Source of the DNA: a virus
IMG/VR virus record: IMGVR_UViG_3300037264_008423
Span: 62,001-126,000 of that record
Length of the DNA: 64,000 nt
Direction: 5' to 3' (one strand)
Each line of letters opens with the position of its first letter. Position 1 is the stretch's first letter. This document shows, in pieces, positions 10,141-41,719 of this stretch. The notes under the pieces are model-generated. The model saw only the letters and a program-made list of their open reading frames with translations. It made no database searches and had not been told where the DNA came from. The translations under genes and the position numbers were made by a program.

Positions 10141-10164
10141 CAAAGTTTGTGCAGGCTATGCGAG
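10141..10164 (+). repeat. Single isolated copy of the array repeat core
   Basis: The stretch AAAGTTTGTGCAGGCTATGC plus GAG matches the core of the repeat at 17.8-18.4 kb. The last 11 nt (GGCTATGCGAG) are identical and the stem AGTTT/AGGCT is kept through G-U pairs. It lies ~7.7 kb upstream of the array, in the gene-poor stretch before the giant protein gene. Confidence 0.7.
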
Positions 10165-10235
10165 TATGGACACCGGATACGTCCGCTGGTTCGGTTTACC
10201 CGCGCCCTGCCCCGACAGGGTTTTGTATTTACGGT

Positions 10236-13200
10236 GTGCAGTTGGAGAATTTAGACGATGACGTGAGCGTGAAGGATCTGGCGGACTATCCGCGCTACCT
10301 GATCCGCAACCCTCAAGGCGACTACTGGTCCAATGACTGGGGATGGGTGGACTACGCCAGCGCCGACATTTTCAGTCACCTGGAAAAAGAGCGGTTCGAC
10401 CTGCCTTCGGAGGGTCAATGGGTTCCCCTGGCCGAATCCCGTCCGGTTATTGGTTTCCCCGGCAATGACTTGAAGGCGCTCCTGGGAGAGGATTTTGTAA
10501 ACAAAGCGGACGCCTTCCTTCAGGAGCAGGGTATGCTGTGCCTCCTGGAGTGGCACCCGCAGGGCCGTCGGGTGGGCCAGGCCCAGGCGGCGGGTCAGGC
10601 GCTCACGGCGCGCTTGAGCCTGAACAGCGCCGACAGCCAGCTCTTGCGCCGCGAGGGGAGCCTGAAGCTTTTAGATCAGTTGCGGGAGAGCGTGCGCGGG
10701 TTTCTGCCCAAGAGCGCCGAGAGCCGGGTCCGGGTGGTTCCCCAGCGTCCCCAGTATGACCGCTGGAACGACCGCTGGAACCTGGAGCTGGTGGTCTTGG
10801 AGGCGTCCGAGGACGACTTGGAGTCCAAAGAGGTCTATTTTGACGATGATCCACCTGAATTTGCCGCTCCCCAGGGCCTTAGCCCGGAGGGAGAGCGCGC
10901 CCGGCAGATCATTGTCCAGGTGCTTCGGCGCAATGGCGATCTGGATTCACGCGGTCAAAAGCATGTTTTCTATACCCCCGAACAATGGGCGCTAAAGGCG
11001 GATGAGCATGTTAAGGACGGGGTATTAGTGGTCGTTCACGATGGCGGCAGCCACGCTCCTTACTTTCACATGTCCTACGCGGCTGAATTAATGCTGAGCC
11101 GGATGGACCTGGCCCTGCGCCGGGAGGGATTTCAAATTTACCCCTACGCCCCTCATTACTCGGTGATTGCTCCGGTGGAACATGACGAGGCTAACCAGTG
11201 GTTTGTGCGCCAGATCGAGGATTGGTTCCAGCGAAACCCGGACCCGGCTGCGGTGCCCGGCGAGGAGCCGCCGCCCCCGGCAGCCACAGGGAATGTCCCG
11301 GAGAGCTTGGAGGACGATGACGATGTAAACTGGAAGGACCTGCAACTGCCGCTGGACAAAGAGGCGGCGATCCGGCACGTGTTTCGGCAGGCGGGGCTGA
11401 AGATCACGTCGATTCAGGAAGTGCCTGAAGACCAGGACTGGGGTGAGCTGGGGCACGCCCAGCGCATCATCGTCACCCGTGTTCCGCCCAATCCCGATCA
11501 GCCCTGGACTACGGACATAAACGCGTGGGAGGCAGTCGATGAGTTTTGTTTACGAATCAAGTCGGCCCTCTATGAGATCCTGGACACGGATGACATCGAG
11601 TGGCTGAGAAACTGGGGCCTGGAGGACCAAGCGCCGGAGGGCCGCCATTGGTATATCTGGTGGTATATCGGCGACCCGGACATCAAGGAAGAGCGGGAAA
11701 TGAATGAATCGGACGAGGACGACTTCGACGTGAAGGACTACTCGGACGACATCCCGCAATCGGATGACTTCCAGGCTTACCTGCTTCAGCGCGGATTTCG
11801 CAAGCTTTCGGGTCAGATGGGAGACTACTTCAAGAAGCTGCCTGCTGCTTACGCGCGGGTTCGGGTTTATCAGTATCCCAACTATGTCAGCTACCTGCTG
11901 GGCCTGAAGGAGGGCAACCACTGGTTTAAGTTGAGCGAGATGACCAACGCCTACCGGGTCCTGTCGGTTTTGCAGCAGCGAGGGCTGTTCGACGTGCGGG
12001 AGGGCCTGGACGAGGAGTTTGGAGCCGATGACGACCCGGAGCTGTATCTCACGCCCACGCCGAACCTTCAGGAGCGGTGGAATCAGTTCGAGGCGGCCTG
12101 GCGCAGTCAGTGGGCGCTCATACAGCGCGGGGTTAATTTCGGCCAGCGCACCGCTTACCTGGAGGGGATCATGCCCTCGCACCTGCGATGGCGCGCCGCG
12201 TTCCAAGAGGTTCAACGGCTCGTTTACGAGCACTTGGGGGGCGGACGCATCGCCGATTTCAAGTATCACCGGGATGGCTACGTCCTGTTTCACATCTACG
12301 ACCTGGGCGGCGTGGTGGAGAGCGAGGCGGAGAGTGAGGCGGATGATGTGGACTGGAAGGAGATCTCTTCCTATCCCAAGCCCAGCGCGCGGGAGGTCCG
12401 GGAAGCCATGAAGCGCCGGGGGATCGTCTATAATCGCCTGGTGCGCGGCAAGGATGTGGTGACCTTCCTGGGCTGGTTTAAGCGGGGTCAACTCGAACTG
12501 GATGTGCTGGCCCTGTTGCGGGAAGCGGCGGCGGAAGCGGGTCTTGACCAGGAGCACGTCCAGTTTTTCTATATGCCCGGCGCGGGTGAGGTCGCGATCA
12601 TCGCGGCGCGGACGGGCCTGTTGGAAAGCGAGGAGGATGAGGACTTTGACACTAGAACCTTGAAGGATGTGTCTGAAACTGGCAAGTTAGTGCCGGAAAT
12701 TGTGGCGGCGATGATCAAAAATGGGGTCATCCATATGATGGTTCGCAGGCCGTGGCAGCCCCCGCCCCACGACTTGCTGCTTTTTATGGGCTTGTGGCAG
12801 GCAGGCAAGACGGACCAGGAGGCCGCCCAGGTTTGCGCGGCGATCCTAAGAGATTTGCGCATTCCCATTACTTCCAGCTTGGACGACTGGTTCAACTATA
12901 TGCCCGGCTCCGGCGATTTCGACCTGGCGCTGCCTGCTTACCTGGTCTTGGACTGGGAGAGGTATGTGGTGGAATCCCAGGCTGGCCTGGTCCAAAAGAT
13001 CATCGAGGCCCAAGGCACGGTTCTAAACGTGCAAGTGGCAGACCGAGAGGAACTTGTCACGATTCAAGGCGAATGGAAGCCCGGAGCCACGGTTCAAGCT
13101 CTTGCCGAGGCCATTAGCGTGGATGCCAATCGGATTCAGTATGACGCCAAAAATGGCGAATTTACGGTGCTGGCAACCCGGCAAGCCCTTGTGCAAGAGG

Positions 13201-14765
13201 ATCAGGCGGATGGCAAGGCCAGCGACACCAAACGGGTCGCCATTGTGGCGGTGTTTCGGCAGAAGCAGGACGATCCCGCCTACGAGTGCCTGGTCTGCAA
13301 GCGCGAGGGGCCGCCAGCGGAGGGCGAATGGGTGATCCCAGGTGGTCATGCCGAGGAGGGCGAGGAGATCAAAGTCGCCGCGCGGCGTGAGTTGCAGGAA
13401 GAGGCGCACGTGGACCTGGGCGACCTGACCTTTGTTAAGACCATGCCCAATGAGACGGGGGACTTGGAAGTCCATGTCTTTGGAGCGATCTTGCCGGAAG
13501 GGGAGAGGGCCAAGGCCGGGGATGACGCGGAAAAGGTGAAATGGCTGCCCCTGGACGATCTGCCCAAGCTGAGCCTGGATAATGACAATTTGATCCGGGA
13601 AGTGGCCGAGGCGATGGAACTGCAACGGCTGCCCTCGGTGGACGAGAGCCTGCCCCCGCGCCTGGCCGACCAGATTCGGTCAAAGATAGCGGCCCTGAAG
13701 CCGCGCCGCGCGAGCCGCGCCGGTATGAGCTTCGAGGTTCAACAGCCAGAGGGATTTGTGGATCGGCTCATCGAGGGGATTGAGCGGGAAGCGGAGCAGT
13801 TGCAAGCCGACGCTCAGCCCGAACTGCGTCTCATGGACCTGATCGAGGATGCCTACAGCCAGACGGGCACCTATTTGTTTCCAGACGACCAGCAGGACGT
13901 GGAGCGATTGGCGCGCGTGCTGGTTCCTTTATTCAAAAAACCAGCCGGACGGCGGATCAAGGAGAGCGCGGACGCTCCCCCGCGCTATGGCACCGTTACC
14001 GACGAGGTAGTGCCTGCCCTGGAACAAGCTCTGGTGGAGATCTTTGGCCAGCGTTATGACTGGCTGGTGCCCCACGTGATCCAGCACATGGACCCGGAGA
14101 TCTCTTTGATCGCGATGGAGGGTGATCGCGTGATCGGTTTCTACATCCTGGGCCGCCGTTCGATCTTGGACGGCGTTAAGAGCGAGCACCTGAAGCCCAC
14201 TGAGGATTTGAAGCCCTATCGGCAGCGCCAGGGCATTGAGGGGGTAGCCCTGGGCATTGTGCCGGATCGCCGGGGCACGGGCCTGGGCAGCCGGTTCAAA
14301 GACTATCCACAAACCCTGGGCGCGGATTATATGTGGGGTCTGCAAATGCATGATCTGGATAACCTGAGCCACTGGCTCAAGCGCCGCCGCATTGTGGCGC
14401 GCAACCCGGAGATGGTCGCGACCCTCCAGGACTTTAAACCGGGGGCGGTAGCGGAGGCCAGCGAAGAGGATTTCGAGGCCAAGGACTTGGAAGATGATTT
14501 GCTGAATGACGAGCATTTTCAAAAGTTTGCCCAGGAGCACGGCCTACTCTACCACCCTGGCGCTAAAATGGTGCGCGACGTGCTGGATAATGTTTATGGT
14601 TCCATTTGGTTTAAGACCGGCCCCTATTTAAATCGGGAGGCCACGGTCCGCCAGTGGACCCAGGTGTTTTCCGACTATTTCAAGATCGATCCCGCCCGGA
14701 TGAAAGTGGCCTATTACCCGCCCAGTGGCGACATTATGGTCATGGTCACGAATCTGGTTCTGTAG
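10236..14765 (+). CDS. Giant multi-module protein with acidic KDL signatures; Nudix and GNAT modules
   Basis: About 1,509 aa. I chose GTG 10236, which puts the first signature (LENLDDDVSVKDL) at the N-terminus as in related proteins. An in-frame ATG at 10149 lies inside the isolated repeat and is less likely. Seven acidic signatures separate modules of roughly 130-600 aa: near 10245, 10800, 11305, 11710, 12330, 12625 and 14460. Most modules are unrecognised alpha/beta domains. At ~13225-13620 there is a Nudix hydrolase with a full Nudix box (GHAEEGEE ... RRELQEEAHV), expected to hydrolyse nucleoside diphosphate derivatives. At ~13990-14430 there is a GNAT-like acetyltransferase (GIVPDRRGTGLGSRF as the acetyl-CoA loop). 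It may be a polyprotein processed or packaged in the virion (inference). Confidence 0.85.
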   Translation: MQLENLDDDVSVKDLADYPRYLIRNPQGDYWSNDWGWVDYASADIFSHLEKERFDLPSEGQWVPLAESRPVIGFPGNDLKALLGEDFVNKADAFLQEQGMLCLLEWHPQGRRVGQAQAAGQALTARLSLNSADSQLLRREGSLKLLDQLRESVRGFLPKSAESRVRVVPQRPQYDRWNDRWNLELVVLEASEDDLESKEVYFDDDPPEFAAPQGLSPEGERARQIIVQVLRRNGDLDSRGQKHVFYTPEQWALKADEHVKDGVLVVVHDGGSHAPYFHMSYAAELMLSRMDLALRREGFQIYPYAPHYSVIAPVEHDEANQWFVRQIEDWFQRNPDPAAVPGEEPPPPAATGNVPESLEDDDDVNWKDLQLPLDKEAAIRHVFRQAGLKITSIQEVPEDQDWGELGHAQRIIVTRVPPNPDQPWTTDINAWEAVDEFCLRIKSALYEILDTDDIEWLRNWGLEDQAPEGRHWYIWWYIGDPDIKEEREMNESDEDDFDVKDYSDDIPQSDDFQAYLLQRGFRKLSGQMGDYFKKLPAAYARVRVYQYPNYVSYLLGLKEGNHWFKLSEMTNAYRVLSVLQQRGLFDVREGLDEEFGADDDPELYLTPTPNLQERWNQFEAAWRSQWALIQRGVNFGQRTAYLEGIMPSHLRWRAAFQEVQRLVYEHLGGGRIADFKYHRDGYVLFHIYDLGGVVESEAESEADDVDWKEISSYPKPSAREVREAMKRRGIVYNRLVRGKDVVTFLGWFKRGQLELDVLALLREAAAEAGLDQEHVQFFYMPGAGEVAIIAARTGLLESEEDEDFDTRTLKDVSETGKLVPEIVAAMIKNGVIHMMVRRPWQPPPHDLLLFMGLWQAGKTDQEAAQVCAAILRDLRIPITSSLDDWFNYMPGSGDFDLALPAYLVLDWERYVVESQAGLVQKIIEAQGTVLNVQVADREELVTIQGEWKPGATVQALAEAISVDANRIQYDAKNGEFTVLATRQALVQEDQADGKASDTKRVAIVAVFRQKQDDPAYECLVCKREGPPAEGEWVIPGGHAEEGEEIKVAARRELQEEAHVDLGDLTFVKTMPNETGDLEVHVFGAILPEGERAKAGDDAEKVKWLPLDDLPKLSLDNDNLIREVAEAMELQRLPSVDESLPPRLADQIRSKIAALKPRRASRAGMSFEVQQPEGFVDRLIEGIEREAEQLQADAQPELRLMDLIEDAYSQTGTYLFPDDQQDVERLARVLVPLFKKPAGRRIKESADAPPRYGTVTDEVVPALEQALVEIFGQRYDWLVPHVIQHMDPEISLIAMEGDRVIGFYILGRRSILDGVKSEHLKPTEDLKPYRQRQGIEGVALGIVPDRRGTGLGSRFKDYPQTLGADYMWGLQMHDLDNLSHWLKRRRIVARNPEMVATLQDFKPGAVAEASEEDFEAKDLEDDLLNDEHFQKFAQEHGLLYHPGAKMVRDVLDNVYGSIWFKTGPYLNREATVRQWTQVFSDYFKIDPARMKVAYYPPSGDIMVMVTNLVL

Positions 14766-34403: not shown

Positions 34404-34628
34404 CTACTTCAGGCACTCAATGCCACGCTGGACCATCTTGTTGAGCAAGGCGACCGCTACCGCGTCGGCACCTTTGCGCCAGCCCTCCTGAATATCCGGC
34501 TTCACCTGCTCCCAGGGCGGCAGCGGTTTGCCATCAAACGATTTCCAGTCGCGGGTGTCGCAGTAGGCGTTGTAGTTGACTTGGCCCAGGTCGGTTGGGC
34601 CTGGTCCAATTTCGATCTTAGTGAGCAT
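34404..34628 (-). CDS. Small unknown protein
   Basis: 74 aa from ATG 34628, overlapping the 3' end of the synthetase gene by 11 nt. Residues 1-40 are polar, then a helix (AVAVALLNKMVQRGIE). No recognised domain. It follows the PurZ-like gene in the same operon. Confidence 0.55.
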   Translation of the reverse strand: MLTKIEIGPGPTDLGQVNYNAYCDTRDWKSFDGKPLPPWEQVKPDIQEGWRKGADAVAVALLNKMVQRGIECLK

Positions 34629-35646
34629 AGGGGTAGTATTGAGATTTGCCGTTGATAAAAGAAGTAAACGTAAAGTTACAGGGATTTTCCGAGGCATAGA
34701 CCAGGCCTTGGTAGCTTGGCCGGATCTTTTGGTCCAGCCACGGGGCGCGGTCCGCCGCGTCGAGGTAATCCAGGTGAGTCACCATAATTTGGTCGGGCAC
34801 AGCCAATTTAAGGCTATAGTCAAAATCGGCATTGGACCAGGTGAAGACGCGGCGTTCTCGACCGGTTACCGTGCCGTGTTCCGGGGGGCGCTTGAGCAGG
34901 GACCACGAGATCTCGGTGCCGCCCGTGGGACCGCTGTTGCCGCCCACGCGGATGGGGAACGTCCGGTAAACGCCCACGTAGTGCCATTGCAGCCGGGCCA
35001 GGCCGTTGCGCGCCACGGCGGCCTGGGGCAGGGTGGACCGGCTGGTCACGTAAGGGTAGTGGCCAAAATTGGTGTCCAGCAGAAGACCTTGGCCGCACTC
35101 GAAGACGCACGTATCGAAGTTACCGGGCAGGTCCTCAATCAAGTCCATATACTCCCGTGGCGCGAGCGCGCACCAGTCCGGGTTAACTTTTTTGATCCGG
35201 TGTCCGATGACGCACTCTTCCTGGCGAAAGACATGCTTGCGGTAGCGAGCCGCGCCGCCGCCTGTGCAGGTGCTCGCGATGCGCTCTCTTAGTTGAATGT
35301 CTTGTTCGGTCTGGACGCAGTTTTCGTCGCAATGAGCGGCGTTGACATGGATATACAACCGCGCGGGAGCTATTCCGTGGGCCGCGCGGTAGTCGCAAAC
35401 AGTGGACCAGTCCTCCGTCAGGACTTCCAAGTCAATGACGGCATCCGGTCCCAGGATCACCGCGTCGGCGAAAAAAGCTCCGGCAGGCAGGGCACGCAGG
35501 GAACCGGCGCGGCAGGTATGGCCGCTGTTGGGGGCGTTCTCTCCAATCACCACGGACCGGCCTTTGTGCTGTTGGAGCAGGGCTTCGGCCACGCAGCCTT
35601 TTCCCTCCAAGCCGTATTGTCCGCCGTAAACACAATAGCATCTCAT
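34618..35646 (-). CDS. PurZ/PurA-like (amino)adenylosuccinate synthetase
   Basis: 342 aa. GGQYGLEGKG is the GTP loop of the adenylosuccinate synthetase family. NAPNSGHT, ILGPDAV, FECGQGLLLD, FGHYPYVTS, RTFPIRVGGNSGP and GTVTGRERRV follow in family order. In cellular PurA the loop reads GDEGKG and its Asp is catalytic; here it is Leu. The PN-x-GHT and LGPxxV wording is closer to the phage enzyme PurZ, which joins Asp to dGMP on the way to 2-aminoadenine DNA. I infer a PurZ-type or related purine-modifying role. At 342 aa it is shorter than bacterial PurA (~430), as phage enzymes are. No MazZ, DatZ or polymerase partner is in the window. Confidence 0.8.
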   Translation of the reverse strand: MRCYCVYGGQYGLEGKGCVAEALLQQHKGRSVVIGENAPNSGHTCRAGSLRALPAGAFFADAVILGPDAVIDLEVLTEDWSTVCDYRAAHGIAPARLYIHVNAAHCDENCVQTEQDIQLRERIASTCTGGGAARYRKHVFRQEECVIGHRIKKVNPDWCALAPREYMDLIEDLPGNFDTCVFECGQGLLLDTNFGHYPYVTSRSTLPQAAVARNGLARLQWHYVGVYRTFPIRVGGNSGPTGGTEISWSLLKRPPEHGTVTGRERRVFTWSNADFDYSLKLAVPDQIMVTHLDYLDAADRAPWLDQKIRPSYQGLVYASENPCNFTFTSFINGKSQYYPYAH

Positions 35647-36940: not shown

Positions 36941-37326
36941 AGGGGTAATTCTTCGATTTTGATGGTCTGGGTATAGTTTTCGCGCCGGGCCAGGTCCTCG
37001 GCGGTGCGGACAGCCTCGTGGTGGTCGCTCGTGCCGCCCAGGTCGTGGGTGGATTCGTCCGCTCGTTGAACGATGACATGGTATTTTCGGCGCTGGTCGA
37101 TCCCGCGCCGGATCACGCTCATTTTGGTGATGGCGGGGGTTTGGCCGCTGGGATAGGCCACGTAAATGTAGCGGGAAGACCATTCCGGGCGGAACTCCTC
37201 GTCATAGGCCATGCCGCTGGTGCTGATGATCACGCCCACGGGACGCTTGCGGATGTCGGCAAGGTCCTGGGCTTTCATCTTGGTTTCTAAATTGATGGCA
37301 TAGGAGCCGGGTTGGGGAAGTTTCAT
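36937..37326 (-). CDS. Unknown protein
   Basis: 129 aa from ATG 37326, which overlaps the upstream stop. Alpha/beta, basic in the middle (IRRGIDQRRKYHVIVQR). Family not recognised. Confidence 0.65.
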   Translation of the reverse strand: MKLPQPGSYAINLETKMKAQDLADIRKRPVGVIISTSGMAYDEEFRPEWSSRYIYVAYPSGQTPAITKMSVIRRGIDQRRKYHVIVQRADESTHDLGGTSDHHEAVRTAEDLARRENYTQTIKIEELPL

Positions 37327-37955
37327 GGGCACTTAATTTCCAGGCGGGTGACCCGGTGGACGTAGTGGGGGGTGATGTTGAGGCTGACGTTGTGCTCGCC
37401 GTGAGGATTCAGGTCGTCCCCGTAGGCGGCTGAAAAGTGGCACATGCAGACGAACTGGGCGACTTCGTTCCAGAATCGCTGCCTAAACACCCTGGGGCAG
37501 TCCCGCGCGGCAGCCACTTCTTGCTGCCAGGTGTCGGTGATTCCCGTCACGGCGTTTTCCTGGATGATCCGGTGCGCTTCCGGGTCCTGTTGCCGCTCCA
37601 GGAGCAGGGCGACACCGGCGACGCTTTCCACGACGAAAGCGACCCGGTTTTTAAAGCCGATCTCATATTCAGTGTCGGTGGTTTTCACTTTCGCCGCTGT
37701 CAGAGCTTGCCAGTCTTTCAGGGCGGCTTCCGCGTCCACCACCACCAGGCGCGCGTCATTGATCAGGTTGCCCAGGTTTTTGTATTCGCGCTGGTTGTTC
37801 TCGATGAAGGCCCGGCTGACAAACTGATAGTAAAGCTGGCGCAGGGTCAGGTCGAAGCCCTGCTGCTGATACTCGGCGATGATGACGTTGGCCTTTTCGA
37901 TTTTCTCCAGGCTGTCCGGCTCGAACTTCTTCTTGCGATATTTAATTTTAGGCAT
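37323..37955 (-). CDS. Protein with Topo VI-A/Spo11-like N-terminal winged helix
   Basis: 210 aa. After a basic start (KIKYRKKKFEPD), FDLTLRQLYYQFVSR ... EYKNLGNLINDARL matches the winged-helix segment that opens TOPRIM proteins of the Topo VI-A/Spo11 group. The TOPRIM domain that should follow is absent; instead there is a ~120-residue unrecognised part with Cys and His (VCMCHFSAAYGDDLNPHGEH). It may be a truncated or rebuilt DNA-binding protein. Confidence 0.6.
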   Translation of the reverse strand: MPKIKYRKKKFEPDSLEKIEKANVIIAEYQQQGFDLTLRQLYYQFVSRAFIENNQREYKNLGNLINDARLVVVDAEAALKDWQALTAAKVKTTDTEYEIGFKNRVAFVVESVAGVALLLERQQDPEAHRIIQENAVTGITDTWQQEVAAARDCPRVFRQRFWNEVAQFVCMCHFSAAYGDDLNPHGEHNVSLNITPHYVHRVTRLEIKCP

Positions 37956-38462: not shown

Positions 38463-39389
38463 CTATTTCACTTGAAGGTTGGGCGGAGGGCAGCCGTTGC
38501 AGGAAATTTGAGTAGTGATGGTCAGCCCCCATGCGGCAGCCTGCACTTTGCACGTCTCAAGAACTTCTGAATCAGGCTTGGAGATTGAGACCGCTGCGAG
38601 GCCGTGGGTCCTAGTTTCCTTTGTGCCATCGCCAATCCAGAGGCCGAAGAAGTAGGGATCAACTTCCGGGTTTGGACGTGTTGGAAAATTGACCATCGCT
38701 GGTTTGAACAACTTCCAGTTCATGTCGGGGCGATTCTGGTTTCGTGTTTCACTCAGAAGTTGATTCAGCGCGACATCACGGACTATGCCCTTGCGGTGGT
38801 TTGTTCCAGCTAAGGTCAAGACGTGAACATTGTTGCAGGTCCATGCCGCACCTTTGATGGGAACGATTTTGAACATCGGAGCTTTGCCCTGAGTTGTTGA
38901 GAGCACCCGCCGTGGTGATCCGTCTGGTCCCATCAAAAGGTCACCTGTCACGATGTCGGCGTTTCGTTTAATGGTGCCATCGTGCAGCAGGATAGGGACA
39001 TCGAGGCCAAGACACTTGCCGGTCCCCGCGCGAGCGCGCACCACGAGCGATCCGGTGCCGGAGTGGAACCATTTGAAGATGGCAATTTGCTCGTCGGACC
39101 AGGGATACTTGGTTTCGGGCAGCACGAACGAACGGGTGGTTTCGGCGGTTACAGCGGCTTGGTTCGGTTCCTGATACCAATTGACGGTCCAGGAGCCATT
39201 GATCAGTTTGGGACTGATGCCCAAGTCGTGGAGTTGGGGCTTGTGCGCGCGCCACAGGGACCAGAATGCGCCGTGCGGGATAGCTGTGCGCACTTGGCGC
39301 AGTCCGCGCGCGGTCTTGGCCAGGCGAGGCTGATTCCAGGCTAGCATCGCTTCCAGAGTTTCGTTCGTAATTTCGTTGGTCGTATTCAT
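38463..39389 (-). pseudogene. SF1-type helicase N-terminus interrupted by an intein and truncated (or N-half of a split-intein gene)
   Basis: 308 aa from ATG 39389, which lies 10 nt after its promoter. Residues ~105-150 (WSDEQIAIFKWFHSG ... LVVRARAGTGK) are the Q-motif and Walker A of an SF1/UvrD-type helicase. Directly after GTGK comes CLGLDVPILLHDG, intein block A, with a Cys at the splice site; NNVHVLTL resembles block B; FFGLWIGDGT is a LAGLIDADG motif of an intein homing endonuclease. The frame then stops with TAG at 38463. The second half of the endonuclease, the intein C-terminus (usually ending in HN) and all later helicase motifs are absent from the window. It is either a decayed gene or the N-half of a fractured gene. 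Confidence 0.8.
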
Positions 39390-39399
39390 TCTGGTGATA

Positions 39400-39428
39400 A
39401 ATGTAAACGATTCTGATTTAGCCGTCAA
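39400..39428 (-). promoter_or_regulatory. Sigma-70-like promoter, nearly leaderless
   Basis: On the minus strand TTGACG (39423-39428), 17 nt, TACATT (39400-39405) and 10 nt to the helicase ATG. GCACTTTCCCTG precedes the -35 box, as at 6.27 kb. Confidence 0.8.
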
Positions 39429-40436: not shown

Positions 40437-41087
40437 TTAATTGACTTTCTGGAGGATACATTGCATGGGCCAAAAATGGATGAAGGCTGTGTCGCCTTGC
40501 AGTTTGTCCATGATGGCAATTCGCGCCAGCAGGGCGGCGTCAAAACGAGAGCGGTCGTTACAGAAATCGGTGGTGGGGGGATTGAGACTAAGGCCGGGCC
40601 GCACCTGGACATAGGGCGTGAGGTCGTAGTAGGTGTTGGCCAAATCCTCGATGGTGTAGAGACCGCCCGGTTTCAAGTGGCCCCAGGCGGCATCCAGGCT
40701 CCCCAGCATGTGCTCCACCAGGTGACTGCCGTCATCGATAATAATGTCAAAGGCGGTGTCGGCGGCGGCGGCGGCGGCGGCGCGCGCCCGGTGAAGAACT
40801 TGCGGGTCGCACTGATGGCCCAGGATCACGGAGATGCGCTCCCCGTAAAACTGGTTGGCCTGCGGGTCCTGGTCAATGCCGATCACACTGGCGTTGCGGA
40901 AATAGTCGCGCCAGACTTTCAGAGAGGAACCCCGATACACTCCCAGTTCCAGCACGCCGCGCACTTGATCCCGGATGGGCGCGAAATAAGTTTCGTAAAC
41001 ATCCAGGTAAGATCGGCCACAAAAGGTGTGGTAGCGGTCCGCCTTGTCGGTTTGGTGCCGGAGGCCCAGTGATTGGAGCGGGTTCAT
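40437..41087 (-). CDS. SAM-dependent methyltransferase, glycan O-methyltransferase-like
   Basis: 216 aa. TDKADRYHTF at the N-terminus, VLELGVYRGSSLKVW as the SAM-binding motif I, VIGIDQDPQA, FDIIIDDGSHLVEH and LKPGGLYTIEDL fit the family of sugar and macrolide O-methyltransferases (class I fold). A run of seven Ala from a GCC repeat is inserted before FDIIIDD. It overlaps and is a paralogue of the next upstream gene, so arose by tandem duplication. Confidence 0.85.
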   Translation of the reverse strand: MNPLQSLGLRHQTDKADRYHTFCGRSYLDVYETYFAPIRDQVRGVLELGVYRGSSLKVWRDYFRNASVIGIDQDPQANQFYGERISVILGHQCDPQVLHRARAAAAAAADTAFDIIIDDGSHLVEHMLGSLDAAWGHLKPGGLYTIEDLANTYYDLTPYVQVRPGLSLNPPTTDFCNDRSRFDAALLARIAIMDKLQGDTAFIHFWPMQCILQKVN

Positions 41088-41719
41088 ACTTTGCAGAAAA
41101 TGGCCTGTTTGGACCAGAAGTGCAGAAAGCGAATGTCCCCCTGGTGGAGATCCATGATCTTTAGCTGGTCGGCGAAAAAGCGGTCCAGCTTAGATCGGTC
41201 CAGCTTAAAGTCGGTGGTCTCTGGCGGATTGTGCTTCTGCCCCGGCCATTCCCTCCAGGAATTGGAGATGTCACCCCAGTGAGACACTTGCAGGTCCTCG
41301 ATAATGTAAAAGCCGCCCGGTTTAACGCGCGGCCAGAGCAACAAGTAGCTGGCAATCTGGTGGTCGATGACGTGGCTGGCGTCGTCAATGACGACATCAA
41401 AAAGTTGATCCGGGGCGACCAGGCTCAAAGCATTGGGATCAATTTGGCTGCCCGTGACTACCTGGATGCGCGGTCCATAGTCGGCCTTGGCCTGCGGGTC
41501 CAGGTCCAGCCCCCATATTTGCGCGTTGGGAAAGTAATCGCGCCAGACTTGCAGGGAGCGACCCTTGAAGACGCCCAGCTCCAGCAGGCAGCGGACATCG
41601 CAACGGATGCCGCGAAAGTAGATTTGATAAACGTCCAGGTAGCTGAGGTCGCGGAACGTGTGGAGGTTGTCCACTTTATCCGTGCCGTATTGAGTGCCGA
41701 GCAGGTGTAATTTTCTCAT
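41084..41719 (-). CDS. SAM-dependent methyltransferase, paralogue of the adjacent one
   Basis: 211 aa. TDKVDNLHTF, LLELGVFKGRSLQVW, IWGLDLDPQA, FDVVIDDASHVIDH and VKPGGFYIIEDL match the neighbour segment by segment. The two genes overlap by 4 nt. The family methylates sugar hydroxyls; the substrate is unknown. Two copies suggest two positions or substrates. Confidence 0.85.
   Translation of the reverse strand: MRKLHLLGTQYGTDKVDNLHTFRDLSYLDVYQIYFRGIRCDVRCLLELGVFKGRSLQVWRDYFPNAQIWGLDLDPQAKADYGPRIQVVTGSQIDPNALSLVAPDQLFDVVIDDASHVIDHQIASYLLLWPRVKPGGFYIIEDLQVSHWGDISNSWREWPGQKHNPPETTDFKLDRSKLDRFFADQLKIMDLHQGDIRFLHFWSKQAIFCKV

Follow-up and report, generated by a model that had tools for sequence, protein, structure and literature searches.

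A PurZ-like synthetase with leucine at the PurZ serine position, encoded by a large phage

Introduction

PurA requires Asp13 as its catalytic base. In some phages the enzyme PurZ contributes to the replacement of DNA adenine, and PurZ homologues serve as a mark of Z-DNA phages. All 147 phage PurZ sequences of PMC12884076 have Ser at the position of the PurA aspartate. In the PurZ of phage S-2L, residues Y21-S23 (Tyr-Gly-Ser) border the 2-amino group of dGMP, and S23 contacts the triphosphate (PMC8342488). The related PurZ0 is always accompanied by DutZ and usually by DmtZ (PMC12884076). In the same study, the stated order of nucleotide preference for PurZ0 and for PurZ seems contrary to the study's introduction; we therefore built our argument on the triphosphate donor on residues, and infer the donor from these.

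The window analyzed here is a viral stretch of 64,000 nucleotides, positions 62001-126000 of the 238,436-base record IMGVR_UViG_3300037264_008423 (called G000), and the whole record was included in the analysis. A sequence-only reading of the window had proposed that it encodes a PurZ-type synthetase and that the phage DNA contains a modified purine.

Results

The synthetase gene and its predicted fold

The synthetase reading frame is open on the minus strand from an ATG at 35646 to a stop at 34618, and its start follows immediately on the stop of the upstream gene. It matches the Pfam family Adenylsucc_synt (PF00709, E 6.4e-28) and phrog_1211 ("2-aminooxy adenylosuccinate synthetase", E 2.5e-48), and its best PDB match by sequence is the PurZ of phiVC8. 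The loop GLEGKG, described in the sequence-only reading as having Leu for the Asp of PurA, is present as stated (GQYGLEGKG, codon TTG), as are the motifs NAPNSGHT and ILGPDAV (Table 1). According to the residue table, the synthetase retains K16, G17, N40, G42, H43, T126, R141, E183, Q186, and T201, as well as R233, T261, R263, R265, R266, and D293; the PurA equivalent of the last, Asp333, selects a guanine donor. Residues R228, P231, I232, and an extra G236 are common to the query and the PurZ-type proteins, whereas PurA has K, S/T/V, and T at 228, 231, and 232 and no insertion at 236.

Table 1. Location of the synthetase, its parts, and adenine methyltransferases. Positions are those of the window unless a record is named; G015 and G025 are sister phages described below.
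Feature	Location	Strand	Basis or remark
Short PurZ-like homologue of adenylosuccinate synthetase (342 aa) with Leu13	34618..35646	-	PF00709, phrog_1211, AlphaFold2 model
Glycine-rich nucleotide loop GGQYGLEGKG, residues 8-17	35596..35625	-	Alignment and residue table
Codon TTG, Leu13 (Ser in PurZ, Asp in PurA)	35608..35610	-	One transition from TCG (Ser)
NSGHT, residues 40-44, with conserved Gly42-His43 pair (PurA Gly40-His41)	35515..35529	-	Alignment and residue table
TVTGRERR aspartate-binding loop, residues 259-266 (PurA 299-306, including Arg303 and Arg305)	34849..34872	-	Residue table
Asp293, equivalent of PurA Asp333; Asn in 8/8 PurZ, Asp in PurZ0 and PurA	34768..34770	-	Residue table
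D12-class adenine methyltransferase	G000:C1:200974-201789 (L010:14974-15789)		DPPY motif
D12-class adenine methyltransferase	G015:91839-92756 (L230)		DPPY motif
D12-class adenine methyltransferase	G025:86922-87884 (L335)		DPPY motif

Structure prediction from the single sequence gave a pLDDT of 32, and an AlphaFold2 model made with 58 aligned sequences was used instead. This model has a pLDDT of 89.6, with values below 50 confined to residues 326-342. Its best fold matches in the PDB are the PurZ structures of phiVC8 and S-2L (TM 0.79-0.80), followed by Pyrococcus PurA and PurZ0; the long PurA structures are more distant. The predicted fold is intact and closest to that of PurZ.

Residue 13 among homologues

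Asp13 of E. coli PurA aligns with Leu13 of the query, and the catalytic aspartate of canonical PurA is thus absent. In the residue table, Asp13 occurs in the four PurA sequences, Ser13 in 79 of the 79 other PurZ-type homologues, and Leu13 solely in the query; Gln10 is found in all but one of the proteins. The 12 aligned proteins from Z phages all have Ser at this position, and a set of 159 homologues whose loop could be read contained no Leu13. Because the motif used in the first searches contained Ser, we repeated the search with motifs from the C-terminal half, which are blind to residue 13. Again, all 79 homologues with a readable loop had Ser13 (this set overlaps with the set of 159). In a scan of viral contigs the exact query protein had no match, and a degenerate DNA pattern for GQ[FY]GLEGKG likewise had none. 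Leu13 had been read as a trait leaning toward PurZ; since PurZ also lacks Leu at this position, it is not a PurZ-like feature.

Phylogeny and sister phages

A synthetase 45% identical to the query (L030) occurs in three viral contigs, the largest of which, G015, has 129 kb. G015 and G000 have many genes in common, in largely the same order, with PolA 48% and the major head protein 80% identical. A search with the polymerase added further large phages, of which G025 (230 kb) carries a synthetase 46% identical to the query. No synthetase match was found in two others (G024 and G026), and G027, from the same PolA lineage, encodes a Bxz1-type PurA-like protein with Asp13. The genes next to the synthetase differ among the three phages that carry it.

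The query, L030, and the G025 protein form one clade with a long stem (support 100/100). In the best tree this clade falls within neither PurZ nor PurZ0; a position next to PurZ is supported by 68/61, and PurZ0 forms a separate clade with support of 100/100. Holding the three sequences with the phiVC8 subgroup inside PurZ was rejected (p-AU 0.02). The p-AU values for the other constrained positions were 0.14 for the OH subgroup, 0.07 for PurZ0, and 0.55 for a basal position next to PurA. Membership in PurA proper is ruled out by the residues, but a basal position of the clade is not rejected by the test. The proposal of a PurZ-type synthetase therefore stands in part: by sequence, fold, and residues 228, 231, 232, and 236 the protein belongs to the PurZ-like, Ser13-type branch and not to canonical PurA; its identity as PurZ is not supported, given the change from Ser13 to Leu, the position in the best tree, and the companion-gene and methyltransferase results below. 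The clade is best explained as a third branch among PurZ-like synthetases, separate from the other two and present in some phages of one large-phage lineage.

RefSeq applies the name 2-aminooxy adenylosuccinate synthetase to Bxz1-type mycobacteriophage proteins, and to the protein at L026:799-2127; the PurZ name looks wrong for these proteins, because ET08 keeps Asp13 (YGDAGKG). The protein gp53 of phage Ghobes resembles the NDT protein.

Bacterial and archaeal contigs (L109-L188) contain Ser13-type PurA-like genes on cell chromosomes, and canonical PurA is also present in 11 of the 14 genomes checked. Among 78 of these chromosomal loci, a DutZ-related dCTP-deaminase/dUTPase-like gene adjoins the synthetase in 40, mostly directly downstream, a DUF7002 gene adjoins it in 21, and a deoxynucleoside kinase is nearby in 14. 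From their gene content, these loci look like a nucleotide cassette. We found no description of this cassette in the literature, and PADLOC has no model for its synthetase.

Loop changes within the clade

To score departures from the conserved pattern, we used the 26 positions that are at least 97% conserved in 48 other PurZ-type homologues, 44 of which break none of them. The query departs at two (S13L and E79D), a count that does not indicate general decay. In L030 the departures are Q10L (residue 9 in its own numbering) and one Val, and in the G025 protein G17A, one Glu, and one Val. Each member of the clade thus alters a different, otherwise invariant loop residue. Because both sisters have Ser13, Leu13 is derived. 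The pattern suggests that the loop in this clade is under relaxed or shifted constraint while the fold is held. The branch leading to the query has a length of 0.85, and that of its sister 0.80.

The phage genome and companion genes

G000 encodes a tail sheath, baseplate wedge, portal, head protease, and major head protein, together with a PolA-family polymerase, a DnaB-like helicase, and an NAD-dependent ligase; from this set of structural and replication genes, we conclude that it is a large contractile-tailed phage. A megablast search with 24 kb of the window against GenBank phages returned no close relative.

Companion genes are missing not just from the window, as pointed out in the sequence-only reading, but from the whole record. 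HMMs built from Z-phage proteins found no homologue of DatZ, MazZ, DUF550/5664, DutZ, DmtZ, or PurB in the 238 kb, which may be incomplete, and the Pfam models for HD, dUTPase, and MazG had no match in G000. As a control, the same HMMs were applied to 80 viral loci from the PurZ search, where they detected DatZ near 28, DutZ near 14, and PolA/DpoZ near 55. G025 gave no significant companion-gene match. G015 has one gene of companion type (L227:3365-4132), a MazG/PRA-PH-like nucleotide pyrophosphohydrolase that matches Pfam weakly and is without counterpart in G000 or G025.

The PolA of G000 (G000:C1:175072-178419; L009:9072-12419) has 1115 aa, a long N-terminal extension, and a 3'-5' exonuclease motif. 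By BLAST it is closest to polymerases of the SPO1 type and of other large phages, and relatives at 42-52% identity in contigs of 44-230 kb mark a large-phage lineage. Helix O contains Tyr, as do the polymerases of the Z phages Galactica and OH; we dropped Tyr/Phe in this helix as a marker for Z-DNA.

D12-class adenine methyltransferases are encoded by all three phages of the clade (Table 1). They fit with adenine-containing DNA, short of proof. Pfam and PHROGs scans recognized no genes for a hypermodified base. A wholly Z-substituted genome is unlikely.

Other reading frames in the window

A reading frame with an intein-type Hint domain (PF05203) at 38463-39428 lies close to a topoisomerase-like fragment at 37323-37955, perhaps as part of a gene interrupted by an intein. 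Two adjoining methyltransferase genes at 40437-41719, both assigned to phrog_21658, are likely a tandem duplication. The frame at 10149-14765 encodes 1538 aa, of which a segment around residues 1044-1148 is NUDIX-like.

Discussion

We favor, at a probability of roughly 0.5, the reading that the gene encodes an accessory, PurZ-like nucleotide-pool enzyme in which Leu13 would have crippled or altered the use of dGMP. With Ser13 still in place, the ancestral enzyme probably activated O6 on dGMP or a similar purine monophosphate, using a nucleotide triphosphate that, judged by residue 293, would have been GTP. Aspartate would then have been joined to C6, giving an N6-succinyl purine for processing by the PurB and kinases of the host. 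Leu13 would occupy the spot at which the Ser of PurZ borders the dGMP 2-amino group and the triphosphate, and at which PurA has its catalytic Asp; because of this place, it should strongly reduce or change the chemistry. We infer that a purine with a 2-amino group would be accommodated less well and that a polar contact would be lost. The gene would be accessory and would mark no more than a partly changed purine pool, not a Z-substituted genome. A single changed position in one contig does not establish that activity is lost, and dGMP could still be a substrate in a rearranged pocket.

An alternative is that the enzyme is an active PurZ and that 2-aminoadenine replaces most or all adenine in the phage genome. 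The PurZ-type sequence and fold, the retention of nearly all other catalytic residues, and a PolA-family polymerase with an exonuclease motif agree with it. Leu13 in place of Ser, the placement outside both PurZ and PurZ0 in the best tree, the lack of any recognized homologue of the six companion types in the record, a PolA that best matches polymerases of the SPO1 type and other large phages, and the methyltransferases of the three phages argue against it, and we regard it as highly improbable. Many genes of G000 belong to no known family, and companion functions could come from unrecognized genes among these. The modified purine proposed earlier has no support beyond the gene family itself, and several lines, among them Leu13, the missing companions, and the D12 methyltransferases, argue against complete replacement.

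Since a single contig carries the gene within the sequences searched, codon 13 could reflect a one-base sequencing or assembly error, or a fresh inactivating mutation, in a gene that normally has Ser13. TTG is one transition from TCG, and both sisters and all other PurZ-type homologues have Ser13; however, the frame is intact, the other invariant residues are retained, and a loop change is usual in this clade, as each sister also alters one invariant loop residue. We consider the error or mutation rather unlikely. An enzyme active on another purine (e.g., IMP, dIMP, or a modified purine), yielding a different nucleotide or base, would account for a Leu that fills the space of the 2-amino group, for altered loops in all three members with the remainder of the site kept, and for the PurA-like Asp293 and Arg263. 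Leu cannot stand in for the catalytic base of PurA, however, and the scans recognized no hypermodified-base genes; we consider this distinctly improbable. The same applies to its broader form, a third PurZ-type lineage in large phages whose evolving base-specificity loop would act on a purine besides dGMP or IMP and alter the pool or the DNA in an undescribed way, which we also think doubtful. The protein may instead be catalytically dead and have been kept as a nucleotide-binding protein with a different function, for example as a partner of a host enzyme or a receptor for a signal nucleotide. Its changed catalytic position, with fold and ligand-binding residues kept, and a branch as long as that of its sister would suit such a role; neither a partner nor a precedent was found, and such a role would hardly call for conservation of His43, Lys16, and the Arg loop together; we rate it very unlikely.

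This PurZ-like gene lacks the diagnostic residue, has no Z cluster with it, and belongs to a large-phage lineage. Because its marker residue is changed and helper genes are missing, this gene taken by itself is no sign that the DNA is modified, and a PurZ label should not on its own be equated with such modification. Should the enzyme prove active, comparison of the Ser13, Leu13, Q10L, and G17A forms that occur naturally within the clade would provide a direct view of the role of the loop in purine choice.

The synthetase resembles the PurZ of phiVC8 and S-2L (DgsS; a Vibrio phage and a cyanophage) in its short form, its fold (TM about 0.8), most active-site residues, and a PIRV strand with the extra Gly. 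Those enzymes differ in having Ser for Leu13 and Asn for Asp293, in occurring together with genes for DatZ and further pool enzymes, and in forming a separate well-supported clade. PurZ0 of Gordonia and Arthrobacter phages is likewise short and has Asp at 293, but it has Ser13 and forms its own clade (100/100). The chromosomal Ser13-type paralogues of bacteria and archaea share the short form, Asp293 (27 of 28), and a similar loop, whereas they have Ser13 and often adjoin dUTPase/DCD-like or DUF7002 genes. With PurA of E. coli and Pyrococcus horikoshii the protein shares the reaction framework, the conserved loop, His and Arg residues, and the Asp293 and Arg263 equivalents; PurA differs in its catalytic Asp13, in residues 228, 231, and 232, and in lacking the extra Gly236, and the E. 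coli form is longer. The Bxz1-type PurA-like proteins of ET08 and G027 are also phage-borne relatives of PurA, the latter from the same PolA lineage; however, they keep Asp13, are of the long form, and are distant (21% identity for ET08).
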